Assembly: GCA_027083445.1 (NCBI GenBank)
Contig: JALWOP010000355.1
Location: forward strand, 1 to 46,261
Length of the DNA stretch: 46,261 nt
Direction: 5' to 3'
DNA from: Planctomycetota bacterium
GTDB lineage: Bacteria > Planctomycetota > UBA1135 > GCA-002686595
Each line of letters starts with the position of its first letter. Positions within the stretch are counted from its first letter, which is position 1. Made by a program: the position numbers and the translations under genes. The notes beneath the pieces were generated by a model. That model did not search any database. It was not told the origin of the DNA and was given only the letters and a program-made list of their open reading frames with translations. Positions 13,642 through 18,015 of the stretch are shown here, piece after piece.

Positions 13642-14471
13642 ATCGGCTCCTTGGAGTCCAGAGAGGTTACAGACTCCTCGCAGGTTCCGTCAGCCTGATG
13701 GCAAGCTTCGTCTTCCGTACGCTCCCCGGCCATCCGCAGCCGGTTTTCCGCGACCGCTTGGGCGTGGGCGGTCTTCCCTGCAATACCCACGGGGCGTTCA
13801 CGCAACCGGGCCAGGTTTGCATCCAGTCCATAGACGAGAATGCGATCTCCGGCCTCGAGCCTCGTGGTGGATGCTGGAGAGGCGATGACCACACCGGAGG
13901 CTCGCTGGATGTTCAGAACCAAGATGCCCTCCTCCGCCAGGCCCAGTTGGCGGAGGGTGTGACCTTCGAGCCAAGAGCCTTCCTCCACCGGGAGCGTCGC
14001 CACACGGTACCCCTTGTCGAGGTTGAGGAGCTCGTGGAGGTCGTCGATGTCCAGAGCTGGAAAGCGATCGAGGGCGGCGGCGATCATGCGATCGACCAAC
14101 CGCTCAAAGGCGCTGACATTGACCGCGATGACGCACAGGAGGACAAAACCAAGGAGCAGGAGCACCTTGGTCATCGGATCCAGCCCTCCCGGTCGGGTCT
14201 GCTGGGTGAAGGTCACGACCAAGGTGCCGAGGGTCGAAGTGATCGCACCGAAGCCGAGCATCATCAGTGTCCGGACGATGCGGCGGCGCACGGGGTGGCG
14301 CACCACGGCCTCGGACTCGGCGGTGGTGAACCCCACTCCCATGAATGCGGACTGTGCCTGGAAACCGGCTACTTCCCTCGCTAGGCCGGTCTTGTGCAGA
14401 GCCAGGGTGCCCACGCGCACAACGAGCAGAGAGAGGGCGATGATCGTGAAGAGGGCGACGAGTTCAGCCAT
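13638..14471 (-). CDS. Membrane protein with C-terminal TrkA_C (RCK) domain
   Basis: 277 residues. Three hydrophobic helices (LVALFTIIALSLLVVRVG; LMMLGFGAITSTLGTLVV; VLLLLGFVLLCVIAVNV) frame a conserved-looking loop (FQAQSAFMGVGFTTAESE) found in proteins annotated as TrkA-C potassium-related transporters. Residues from about 160 form a TrkA_C regulatory domain (VEEGSWLEGHTLRQLGL, then ILVLNIQR, and LEAGDRILVYG), which in relatives binds ligands such as nucleotides. Probably an inner-membrane cation-related protein; it is not a full channel with a selectivity filter. Co-translated with the small acidic protein gene. Confidence 0.85.
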   Translation of the reverse strand: MAELVALFTIIALSLLVVRVGTLALHKTGLAREVAGFQAQSAFMGVGFTTAESEAVVRHPVRRRIVRTLMMLGFGAITSTLGTLVVTFTQQTRPGGLDPMTKVLLLLGFVLLCVIAVNVSAFERLVDRMIAAALDRFPALDIDDLHELLNLDKGYRVATLPVEEGSWLEGHTLRQLGLAEEGILVLNIQRASGVVIASPASTTRLEAGDRILVYGLDANLARLRERPVGIAGKTAHAQAVAENRLRMAGERTEDEACHQADGTCEESVTSLDSKEPI

Positions 14472-14486
14472 GGGAGCCGCAGAGGC

Positions 14487-14512
14487 CTGTAGGGGAGCCG
14501 TAGGCCCTACAG
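14487..14512. terminator. 8-bp perfect inverted repeat, putative terminator
   Basis: CTGTAGGG (14487-14494) and CCCTACAG (14505-14512) with a 10-base loop, 48 bases past the end of the response-regulator gene and just upstream of the TrkA-C gene start. No T-run. Confidence 0.4.
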
Positions 14513-14560
14513 CCTAGCCTGCGATCCTCCTCCACCCGAGCGCTCTCTACCTGCGAGGCG

Positions 14561-15262
14561 TCAGGAGGCGCGGGTGGCGGGCTCGAACGAATCTGCTACG
14601 AGACGGTAGCCCCTGCCGACGACGGTGTCGATCGGGGAGCTTCTGCTCGAGCGGGTCAACTTGCGCCGCAGCCGCGCCACGAGAACGTCGACCAGGTTTG
14701 TGCCCGGATCGTGGGTCGTCTTCCAAACCTTCTCGAGAAGCTCGCTGCGGCTGAAGGTTTCCCCCGGGCGCTCCGCAAGGGTGCGGAGAAAATCAAACTC
14801 GAGGGGACTCACCTCCAGCGTGTGGTCGGCGAAGGTGATGGTTCGGCGGCTCAAGTCGAGGTGCAGGTCCCCCAGGTGCAGGGTGGGCAGGGTCCGCTGG
14901 CGGCGAAGGATGGCTGTACTACGGGCGTACAACTCGGCAAACTCGAAGGGAAGGCCGAGATAGTCGTCGGCGCCGGCCTCCAAAGCTCGGACGCACTCCT
15001 CGGTGGAAGGGTGGGCAGAAAGGATGATGACCGGAGTCGTGAGGTCCTGTTCCCGCACTTCTCGCAGCAGGGCGAGGTCGGGCGAACCCTCGAGTTCAGC
15101 GGCCAAGAAGAGCAGATCGAAGGGGGCTTGGGGCTTCTCGCTGAGGAAACCGCGCGCCTCCGCCGCAGTCGTGCTTACGCGGCACTCCGCTCCGACCGTC
15201 GCGAGATCGCGCTGGAGGCGGTTGCGGGTCTGGGGGTCACCGTCAACTAGAAGGACGCGCAT
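14561..15262 (-). CDS. OmpR-type atypical response regulator lacking the phospho-acceptor Asp
   Basis: 233 residues: receiver domain (1-120) plus winged-helix DNA-binding domain (about 130-225, with LEVSPLEFDFLRTLAERPG, FSRSELLEKVW, VDVLVARLRRKL and VVGRGYRLV, all canonical for OmpR/PhoB). In the receiver, the phospho-acceptor position reads LLFLAAEL, so Ala54 replaces Asp, and the conserved Lys near the end is Leu104 (DDYLGLPFE instead of the usual KPF). The acidic pair (VDGDP) and Ser82 remain. It therefore cannot be phosphorylated in the standard way and is expected to act constitutively or through another signal. No histidine kinase is adjacent. Divergent from the candidate selenoprotein gene. 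Confidence 0.95.
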   Translation of the reverse strand: MRVLLVDGDPQTRNRLQRDLATVGAECRVSTTAAEARGFLSEKPQAPFDLLFLAAELEGSPDLALLREVREQDLTTPVIILSAHPSTEECVRALEAGADDYLGLPFEFAELYARSTAILRRQRTLPTLHLGDLHLDLSRRTITFADHTLEVSPLEFDFLRTLAERPGETFSRSELLEKVWKTTHDPGTNLVDVLVARLRRKLTRSSRSSPIDTVVGRGYRLVADSFEPATRAS

Positions 15263-15378
15263 GGGACTTGGCCTCGTAGGGGTCGATTCGCCGCGAGAGC
15301 AGGGTGGCTCGGAGAGAGGCTCCGGGCGGAAGTGAAGTTTCCTCGTCCCGCCCTCGGGCTACTTGCGTAGGGTCATCT

Positions 15379-15400
15379 GCTACAGACCCATCTCTGTAGC
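15379..15400 (+). promoter_or_regulatory. 8-bp perfect hairpin directly before the selenoprotein-candidate start
   Basis: GCTACAGA (15379-15386) and TCTGTAGC (15393-15400) enclose six bases and end one base before the ATG at 15402. The ribosome binding region lies inside the hairpin, so it could control translation; a terminator role is less likely because no gene ends just upstream on this strand. Confidence 0.5.
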
Positions 15401-15401
15401 C

Positions 15402-15872
15402 ATGACCATGAAACGCCTCCTTCTCCCCCTGATCCTCCTGGCCGGCTGCGCCTCCACGCCGCCACCGCCCACCGTTTCTTTGCCGGAGAGCGCGGAGACC
15501 CTGGATGGTGGCCGGGTTCAGCTCGCCGGACGACCGGTCGCGCTGGTCTTCTGGCAGAGCTGGTGAAGAGGTTGCCTTCAAGAAGCGCCCCTGGTCCAGG
15601 AGGCGTACCGAACCTATGGAGAACGGCTGCCCATCCTGGGGGTCGTCGCCGGAGCCGACGGGAAGGTGGACGAGAGCGCGCTGCGTTTCACGATCGCCAA
15701 GTTGGGTCTCACCTACCCACAGATTCGAGACCGAGACGGACTCCTCACCGAGTTGCTCTCCGGCCGCAGCCTGCCGACCGTGGCGGTCCTGGACAGCGAA
15801 GGCCATGTGCGCTATTGGGGTCACGACCTGCCGGACTTCGAAGATCCGGCCTTCGAAGACCTGATGCGCTAA
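15402..15872 (+). CDS. Thioredoxin/TlpA-like lipoprotein, candidate selenoprotein (in-frame TGA)
   Basis: 156 residues if the TGA at 15564-15566 is read as selenocysteine. Start ATG 15402 or 15408 gives a lipoprotein signal ending LLAGC. The body is thioredoxin-like: VALVFWQSW, then TGA, then RGCLQEAPLVQ, matching the TlpA pattern F-W-x-x-W-C-x-x-C with the first Cys replaced by the TGA codon (U-R-G-C). The same frame then runs 102 codons without interruption to TAA at 15872, with YPQIRDRDG, the cis-Pro segment RSLPTVAVLD and GHVRYWG, all typical of TlpA/AhpC-TSA relatives. A stem-loop follows at 15586-15605. It would be a membrane-anchored periplasmic thiol/selenol redox protein. The alternative is a nonsense mutation at the catalytic Cys. 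No sel genes are in this window. Confidence 0.8.
15564..15605 (+). promoter_or_regulatory. Candidate bacterial SECIS (TGA plus downstream stem-loop)
   Basis: After the TGA (15564-15566) and 19 spacer bases comes an 8-bp stem: CGCC-CCTG (15586-15593), loop GTC, CAGG (15597-15600), a bulged A at 15601, then GGCG (15602-15605). The apex reads GGUC, as in the loop of the E. coli fdhF element, and lies about 27-30 bases after the TGA, within the range known for bacterial SECIS elements. Fold judged by eye. Confidence 0.6.
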
Positions 15873-15913
15873 CGTTCCACACCAGGTAGTCGTCTCTCGA
15901 GGCCCGGGCTGCA

Positions 15914-17107
15914 TCACTGGGTGACGTTCATGCGAATGGCTAGCCAGGGGGTCGCGCCGTAATTGCGGCAGGCACAGGCCACATCCATGTCCCCATCCCC
16001 GTCCCAGTCTCCGCCTAGAGCAGCCATGGGTTGCAGGTTGATCGGATACTGACCCGTCTCCTCGAAGACGGCCTGTCCGAGGTTGCGGTAGACATGCACC
16101 TGGCTTCCGTCGAGGGCGACGATGTCAGGAGAGCCATCTTGGTTCATGTCGCCGACCACGGTGGAACCATCGAACGCGGCCCCGTACTTGCCACCTGTGC
16201 TGAAGCTGCGGTTGCCGCTGTAGAGGGAGATCCAGAGCCCACCGGTGTAGTTGGGGAACTGGTCCGCGACAGCCGTGGCAAGGTCGAGGTCGCCGTCTCC
16301 GTCCAGGTCGGCCAGGGAGGCGAAGTCGCCTGGGGAGACCGATGTCGCTGAAGACGTGCTGAAAACCGCGGAGCCATCGCCCCACCAGACGCTGGTGGAG
16401 TTGCCCGCCCCCACGATCAGATCCACGTGTCCGTCCCCATCGACATCGGAGCAGGCGATTTCCCGCCCGGCCGTGATCGCGGAGGAGCCCCCTGCGGGGA
16501 TGGTTGCACCGAAGGTGCCGTCACCCTGGCCCAGGTGGGTCGAGACCCCGTAGTGGTTCGAGATGACCGCCAGGTCGAGGATTCCGTCCTCGTTCAGGTC
16601 GGCCGTGGAGACCGCGATGGGAAAGGGACCGTAGGCCTGGATCTCCTGGAGGAAGGTGAACCCGGCGGCGCCGTCGCCCAGGAAGATGTTGACCTTGTAG
16701 TTGGTGTTGCCGTAGAGATCCCATCCAGCTCCCAGCGTGACCGCGAGATCGAGGTTTCCGTCGCTGTTGAAATCTCCCGCAGCCAGGCCCCAGGGGCCTG
16801 GATCGCCGAAGCCCAGGGCGGCATTGAAATCATGGTCATCGTTGAAGCCTCCTAGTCCATCACCAAGGACAACGCAGACTTCGGGTCCAAGGATGCCGCT
16901 GGTGGCCAGGTCGAGGATGCCGTCGGCATTGAAGTCGGCGACTACCATGTCGCGCGGATCCTGGCCCGCGATCTGATAGTAGACGTCGCCTCCAAGCACG
17001 GGAGGAGGGCCGAGGCTCGGGACGCGAGAGGGTGCCGTTGGGAGCTGCGCTCCAGCGCCGGCGCATAGGAGGAGCAGACCTACCGAGGTGTGGGGTCCGT
17101 GTCTCAT
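15914..17107 (-). CDS. Secreted FG-GAP/VCBS repeat protein
   Basis: 397 residues from the ATG at 17107, which overlaps the stop of the upstream gene (ATGA) and gives a signal peptide (MRHGPHTSVGLLLLCAGAGAQ). The mature part is a run of FG-GAP/VCBS units with Asp-rich calcium loops such as DFNADGILDLA, DFNSDGNLDLA, DLNEDGILDLA, DVDGDGHVDLI, DLDGDGDLDLA and DWDGDGDMDVA, predicted to form a beta-propeller as in integrin alpha chains. Probably extracellular or surface bound. Last gene of the cluster that begins with the cytochrome conduit; it converges on the selenoprotein candidate. Confidence 0.9.
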   Translation of the reverse strand: MRHGPHTSVGLLLLCAGAGAQLPTAPSRVPSLGPPPVLGGDVYYQIAGQDPRDMVVADFNADGILDLATSGILGPEVCVVLGDGLGGFNDDHDFNAALGFGDPGPWGLAAGDFNSDGNLDLAVTLGAGWDLYGNTNYKVNIFLGDGAAGFTFLQEIQAYGPFPIAVSTADLNEDGILDLAVISNHYGVSTHLGQGDGTFGATIPAGGSSAITAGREIACSDVDGDGHVDLIVGAGNSTSVWWGDGSAVFSTSSATSVSPGDFASLADLDGDGDLDLATAVADQFPNYTGGLWISLYSGNRSFSTGGKYGAAFDGSTVVGDMNQDGSPDIVALDGSQVHVYRNLGQAVFEETGQYPINLQPMAALGGDWDGDGDMDVACACRNYGATPWLAIRMNVTQ

Positions 17108-18015
17108 TGGAACGTCACTTGAACCGCTGAGGTCATGTTGGAACCCGAGCCGCATGGGCTACCGTTGGGATCCCGGTACCAGGCCTGGAAGTAGCGCGTC
17201 TCACCGGCGGCCCAGCCACCCTTGGTGCGCAGTCCCGGCCCGAACACAGCCGTGCCCGAGGCATCGGGGACGTTGATCTCGAGCCGGATGATCGAGCCGC
17301 CGACACAGAGGAGTCCATCCCCCAGGGGGCTGCCCAGGCCGAAGTTGTTCGGCTGGGTGCCGACGAAGAGCAGGGCCGGCTGGCCGGGGAGCAGGTTCGT
17401 CGCGCTGAAGGTCAGGTCATCCGTGAGCACACTGGCGGACCCGGACGGGATCAACCAGGTACCTTGACCCGAGGAGTTGGCGCAGCCGAGTCCCGGGTCG
17501 GCATCGTTCCCGCAGGGGCAACCCGTTCCCGTCCCATCGCCCGCGCAGAAGGGCAAGAAGGGGGATGTGCGCGCGGCTTGTCCCCCCAGCATGTGTCCCT
17601 GGCGGTTGATACCTGCCGCCTCGATCTCGAACTTGCTCAGCACGACGTCCACTGGAGTCTGGCCGTCCGGGGAGAGGGGGGCGGTGAACTTGATCTGCAT
17701 GCTCACCCCCCAGTCGTGCCAGTTCCCGGGCAGATCGATGTCGATCTGAGTGGTATCGAAGGTCCAGGTGAGGCCCATCCCATCCCCATACCAGGGGAGG
17801 GTGAGGGAGGTGAAGGTACCGCTGCCGTTGGCGAAATCTCCGTTGGTGTAGGTCCACTCGAAGGTGCCCTGCATGAGCTGGGGGCTCTCCCAGGGGTGGG
17901 TGATGTCGGGGTCGAGCCAAACATCCTGGAGCTCGTAGGTAATGGTCATCGTCTGGCCCAGGGCGAGGGGGGCGGCGAGGAGGGCCAGGAGAGAGGCAAT
18001 CGCAGGAGTTCTCAT
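17104..18015 (-). CDS. Secreted protein with C-terminal Cys/Gly module
   Basis: 303 residues; the ATG at 18015 gives a clear signal peptide (RTPAIASLLALLAAPLALG). Residues to about 155 are a beta-rich domain (TITYELQDVWLDPD, FEWTYTNGDFANGSGTF) of unknown type. The rest is a modular domain: Cys-rich entry (FCAGDGTGTGCPCGNDADPG), a beta sandwich (LPGQPALLFVGTQP) and the ending FQAWYRDPNGSPCGSGSNM ... VQVTFQ. The same module begins the protein at 28565, and a relative appears at the right edge of the window. Likely a surface or secretion-related module of this lineage. Its stop overlaps the FG-GAP gene. Confidence 0.85.
   Translation of the reverse strand: MRTPAIASLLALLAAPLALGQTMTITYELQDVWLDPDITHPWESPQLMQGTFEWTYTNGDFANGSGTFTSLTLPWYGDGMGLTWTFDTTQIDIDLPGNWHDWGVSMQIKFTAPLSPDGQTPVDVVLSKFEIEAAGINRQGHMLGGQAARTSPFLPFCAGDGTGTGCPCGNDADPGLGCANSSGQGTWLIPSGSASVLTDDLTFSATNLLPGQPALLFVGTQPNNFGLGSPLGDGLLCVGGSIIRLEINVPDASGTAVFGPGLRTKGGWAAGETRYFQAWYRDPNGSPCGSGSNMTSAVQVTFQ

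Follow-up and report, generated by a model that had tools for sequence, protein, structure and literature searches.

The window, which is the whole 46,261-nucleotide stretch of DNA analyzed here, contains an open reading frame for a selenoprotein candidate with an in-frame TGA (Table 1). With this TGA read as selenocysteine (Sec), the motif is FWQSW-U-RGC, and the TGA occupies the position of the first cysteine of the thioredoxin CxxC. The neighboring genes on the minus strand encode a response regulator with a C-terminal DNA-binding domain (14561-15262) and an FG-GAP repeat protein (15914-17155). Since both are oriented opposite to the selenoprotein gene, it appears to stand alone.

Table 1. 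Coordinates of the selenoprotein candidate and its proposed recoding elements in the window
Feature	Position	Strand	Details
Selenoprotein-candidate ORF	15402..15872	+	ATG at 15402, TAA stop at 15870-15872; 156 aa with TGA as Sec
In-frame TGA, proposed Sec codon, residue 55	15564..15566	+	Aligned with TGC/TGT of homologues
TGC, Cys58, second residue of UxxC	15573..15575	+	Invariant alignment column
Proposed bSECIS stem-loop	15585..15606	+	Folding; pattern-constrained hairpin search
5' arm of the stem-loop	15585..15593	+	
Loop GUC	15594..15596	+	
3' arm of the stem-loop	15597..15606	+	

The protein matches the Pfam families AhpC-TSA (4.4e-10) and Redoxin (1.6e-8), and a profile built from 30 relatives matches the ResA and StoA chains. 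An AlphaFold model with Cys substituted for Sec shows the thioredoxin fold with a mean pLDDT of 91.8, and its best solved-structure matches are ResA. Residue 55 immediately precedes the helix spanning residues 56 to 72 of the model. The protein therefore shows the features of the TlpA/ResA-like group, the thioredoxin fold and, at the helix start, UxxC in place of CxxC. The N-terminal region includes the sequence LLAGC, with the Cys codon at 15447-15449, which we take to be a lipoprotein signal. The predicted product is a TlpA/ResA-like, lipoprotein-type thiol-disulfide oxidoreductase with a presumed redox function.

The alignment of the family places cysteine codons opposite the TGA, as expected for a selenoprotein gene. 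Among 87 family loci, three gave no profile hit (L046, L055, and L056), and two had no readable motif (L103, in which the site reads FWQTTC, and L045, which is incomplete at the site); the remaining 82 loci were collapsed to 50 distinct homologues. The codon is TGA in 9 of these and TGC or TGT in 41. A flag of one TGA for the genomes G008 and G118 does not concern the active site, where the codons are TGT and TGC. On a tree of 45 homologues, with the distant L043, L054, L105, L106, and L107 left out, the TGA/Cys label needs four changes, of which at least three are forced by well-supported branches. One clade with a support of 99/98 contains seven TGA rows and a single TGC row, L020. In genus g10, L022, L023, and L082 have TGA, while in L020, from genome G010, the Sec codon is replaced by TGC. 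G010 retains tRNA-Sec and a TGA-containing selD despite this codon. The L020 peptide past the site is changed from LVQ or MVQ to EVE, with loss of the CUGGUGCAG core. By gene comparison with its g10 relatives, L020 is a natural Sec-to-Cys switch.

The genome of the window encodes the complete Sec machinery: selA (474.5 bits), selB (320.9 bits for the main segment and 357.9 bits with the neighboring segment), selC as a tRNA-Sec with a TCA anticodon (UCA; 75.6 bits), and selD (341 bits), which itself contains an in-frame TGA. SelB carries the C-terminal winged-helix domain SelB-wing_3, and selA, selD, and tRNA-Sec lie together on one contig, C365. Across the order, tRNA-Sec is found in 138 of 154 genomes, and selD is matched in 141 genomes and contains the TGA in 138 of them; the codon is missing from G076 and G062, and the G013 sequence ends before the site. 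Judged by gene content, Sec decoding is nearly universal in this planctomycete order. TGA homologues occur in eight of its genomes (G000, G001, G009, G014, G037, G045, G058, and G113). Six of these have a tRNA-Sec match, which is absent from G001 and G058, two genomes that are 72% and 64% complete, respectively.

The original prediction described a stem of 8 bp with one bulged A and an apical GGUC, beginning 19 bases after the TGA, and folding reproduces this structure. The 19 bases separate the TGA from C15586. The stem is built from CGCC (15586-15589) paired with GGCG (15602-15605) and CCUG (15590-15593) paired with CAGG (15597-15600), forming eight Watson-Crick pairs with A15601 bulged on the 3' side. 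A terminal G15585-U15606 contact adds a ninth pair. The fold energy of positions 15584 to 15605 is -10.9 kcal/mol, reaching -13.2 kcal/mol with flanks. The description of GGUC as the apex holds for the sequence of the tip but not fully for its structure, as the first G (15593) is paired with C15597 in the minimum-energy fold, leaving the triloop GUC. The spacing from the TGA is 26 nt to GGUC and 27 nt to the triloop, both inside the bacterial range of 16 to 37 nt, as had been claimed.

Compared with dinucleotide shuffles, the 22-mer at 15584-15605 is unusually stable, its stability being matched by 5 of 200 (z = -2.09), but this signal is lost in longer fragments. The excess fades with longer flanks (z = -1.27 for 15564-15605 and -1.57 for 15567-15610), and the z values are +0.16 for 15567-15640 and +0.54 for 15550-15625. 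With the search constrained to the bSECIS loop pattern and a spacing of 16 to 37 nt, a hairpin of the same or greater stability lies behind 23 of the 966 TGAs in the window and is present at 1.9% of 4018 grid positions. Synonymous recodings yield such a hairpin in 97 of 5000 cases (3 of 300 in a separate run), compared to 18 of 3000 uniform-codon recodings and 5 of 3000 codon-order shuffles. The rarity of the hairpin is roughly at the 2% level, not more, and only slightly beyond chance. When the G-G/U pattern is dropped in a looser bSECIS model, the hairpin is ordinary, being equaled or surpassed in 168 of 400 recodings. The encoded peptide EAPLVQEA biases the sequence toward the fold: 40% of the synonymous recodings of this stretch form the core of 3 bp with a loop of 5 nt at the same spacing, with all eight pairs arising in 3.9%. 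The hairpin had been put forward as independent support for Sec insertion. It is consistent with Sec, but its independent weight is small, because GC-rich coding DNA, which often yields bSECIS-like hairpins, and the EAPLVQEA peptide themselves favor such structures.

A pattern-constrained hairpin of -7.5 kcal/mol or lower is found in five of the nine TGA homologues, against an expectation of 1.9 derived from recodings (P = 0.023), and in 7 of the 41 Cys homologues, against an expectation of 8.8 (P = 0.85); the two groups differ under the pattern model (Fisher test, 0.027; rank test, 0.023), all of these P values being calculated as if the homologues shared no ancestry. All eight pairs are kept in the window and in L083 of the same genus, while Cys homologues have at most six. 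In L023 and L082, both with TGA, the search found no pattern-matching hairpin. The looser bSECIS model does not separate the groups, with 32 of 41 Cys and seven of nine TGA homologues passing. Compensatory changes had been named as a check, with refutation if TGA-carrying homologues showed no covariation. By this check the exact fold fails, since 58.3% of the cells are paired across the nine TGA homologues, compared to 56.4% in shuffled controls. The fold is likewise not conserved at a fixed register in these nine sequences. An Rfam search over positions 14400 to 17000 gave a single unrelated weak match.

The SECIS elements of selD provide a yardstick for the lineage. Seventy-one selD loci were read (70 with TGA and 1 with TGT), and the 70 TGA loci were kept for later analysis. 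A five-base tip, NG[GU]NN, with at least three flanking pairs and a spacing of 26 or 32 is present in all 71. The loci L090, L109 to L138, and L140 to L179 fall into two classes, with a spacing of 26 (29 loci) or 32 to 33 (41 loci). The spacing-32 class covaries strongly, with 98.5% of cells paired and 16 double-changed cells against 3.5 in shuffles; the spacing-26 class covaries less, with 91.5% paired and 9 double-changed cells against 4.2. Two genomes of the window's family, G021 (locus L148) and G033 (locus L166), have the other selD class together with a divergent SelD N terminus, a pattern that suggests an exchange of selD between lineages.

The window hairpin, CCU[GGUCC]AGG at a spacing of 26, fits the NG[GU]NN tip and the spacing-26 class. 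The selD gene of the same genome also contains GGUC, but at a spacing of 32 and with different stem sequences. Covariance models of the two selD classes, R1 (29 sequences) and R2 (41 sequences), do not list the window hairpin at E values up to 10. Over 20 family loci, R1 gives only a core match at the hairpin of L083 (10.7 bits; E = 2.5), which stands among matches at chance level, some of them in Cys loci. The likeness to the selD elements is therefore architectural and not sequence based. The tip at a spacing of 26 occurs in three of nine TGA and none of 41 Cys homologues in a test framed after selD had been seen; over the whole range of 16 to 37 nt, the counts are four of nine and 8 of 41 (P = 0.13), and the significance is lost.

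A second set of TlpA-like genes, L181 to L200, is spread through the order and shows mostly the motif W-U-G-P-C; the member in the window's own genome is L191 (G000 contig C72, 8579-9529). The TGA stands at the first position of UxxC in all 20 stretches, which were chosen because a TGA had been listed in them. From these sequences, thioredoxin-fold selenoproteins appear to be numerous in the lineage. With the loop pattern imposed, a hairpin of -7.5 kcal/mol or lower is present in only 4 of the 20, compared to 2.4% of recodings. Probable selenoproteins of this lineage hence often lack a textbook hairpin, and the one in the window is supportive but not required.

The reading preferred here, with a probability of about 0.8, is that the gene encodes a selenoprotein with the motif W-U-x-x-C and that the hairpin at 15585-15606 is its bSECIS. 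Insertion of Sec at the TGA is close to certain, and the hairpin itself very probably serves as the acting SECIS element. The proposal of a Sec-insertion hairpin is likely correct in view of the machinery, the TGA/Cys exchange, the spacing, and the GGUC tip, but covariation is lacking and the hairpin is weak when taken alone. The argument for Sec is carried by the codon exchange and the machinery, and the hairpin is consistent with it. When the ribosome arrives at the UGA, the G-G/U tip would be bound by SelB carrying Sec-tRNA-Sec, and Sec would be incorporated in place of termination. The selenocysteine would then be the first active-site residue of the putative thiol-disulfide oxidoreductase.

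An improbable explanation of the hairpin accepts Sec insertion but takes the stem as a by-product of the GC-rich EAPLVQEA codons, the true SECIS being another overlapping or looser fold. The frequent formation of the core in recodings, the loss of the exact fold in other TGA homologues, and the few second-family genes that reach -7.5 kcal/mol are in line with it. Against this stand the rarity of recodings that attain the stability of the hairpin with the loop pattern (only 97 of 5000), the excess of hairpins in TGA but not in Cys homologues, and a tip and spacing equal to those of the spacing-26 selD class. A far less probable view takes the TGA, a stop in the standard code, as a true stop, either in a pseudogene or at the end of a short product of 54 residues. 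The draft genome is fragmented into 477 contigs, and from the window alone a single-base error is conceivable. However, the same codon is TGA in eight more distinct homologues, several of them outside the genus, and in each case it stands opposite Cys in the remaining family members; the frame past the TGA is open and conserved, and the genome contains the full Sec machinery. It is very unlikely that the stem-loop belongs to another feature, for example a terminator or an opposite-strand gene: although the other strand has an open frame of 224 aa at 15243-15917, this frame is without a Pfam match, whereas the plus-strand frame belongs to a conserved thioredoxin family, and the stem lies within coding sequence with no T-run after it.

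Under the selenoprotein reading, the locus is one more instance of an established signal type and adds a group of TlpA/ResA-like selenoproteins to this planctomycete order. A speculative and rather doubtful extension is that the order uses its own SECIS style, a 5-nt N-G-[G/U]-N-N tip at a spacing of 26 or 32 common to unrelated selenoproteins. Keeping the tip might then shape the post-Sec peptide of the window's family (EAPLVQ in some members of the Sec clade), and a switch to Cys, as in L020, might free both fold and peptide. Annotation that treats every TGA as a stop would divide such genes or overlook them. A lone stem-loop says little in GC-rich coding DNA, as about four-fifths of the Cys homologues meet the looser criteria.

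In the fdhF mRNA of Escherichia coli, SelB makes contact with a bulged U and with the G and U at the apex. The bulge of the window hairpin is an A and lies on the opposite arm. The original prediction matched the two apices, and in the window as in fdhF (NC_000913.3) a short stem following the TGA is indeed capped by GGUC. The geometry differs: GGUC lies 18 nt past the TGA in a tetraloop in fdhF, compared to 26 nt in the window with the first G paired.

The bSECIS model specifies an apical loop of 3 to 9 nt on an upper stem of 4 to 16 bp, a G within the first two loop positions, mostly as N1-G[G/U]-N-N2, a UGA-to-loop distance of 16 to 37 nt, and a minimum free energy of -7.5 kcal/mol or lower; it allows very unlike elements and does not require covariation (PMC13188914). 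The window hairpin agrees with this consensus in loop size (3 nt), stem (nine pairs and one bulge), the G-U following a paired N1 (G15593-[GUC]-C15597, N1-GU-N-N2), spacing to the triloop, and energy, both for 15584-15605 and with flanks. It differs in the A bulged on the 3' side, and its exact fold is not conserved in most TGA homologues.

The NCBIfam family NF041054 (WAxxUGC_long) comprises ResA-like proteins with Sec, as in the window protein, but the Sec motif differs. The match of 2.2e-5 (23.9 bits) falls far below the curated cutoff of 300, which places the protein outside this family, and NF041054 is found at an E value of 1e-60 or better in 1 of 154 genomes of the order. The UxxC thioredoxin-fold selenoproteins listed in the same source as the bSECIS model include a Prx-like thiol:disulfide oxidoreductase (PF00578), a thiol-disulfide isomerase-like protein (cd02966), and a redoxin (PF08534) (PMC13188914). 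Compared by domain, the window protein is likewise an AhpC-TSA/Redoxin protein with UxxC, set apart from those listed by the FWQxW-U-x-x-C context of its family and by its planctomycete lipoprotein type.
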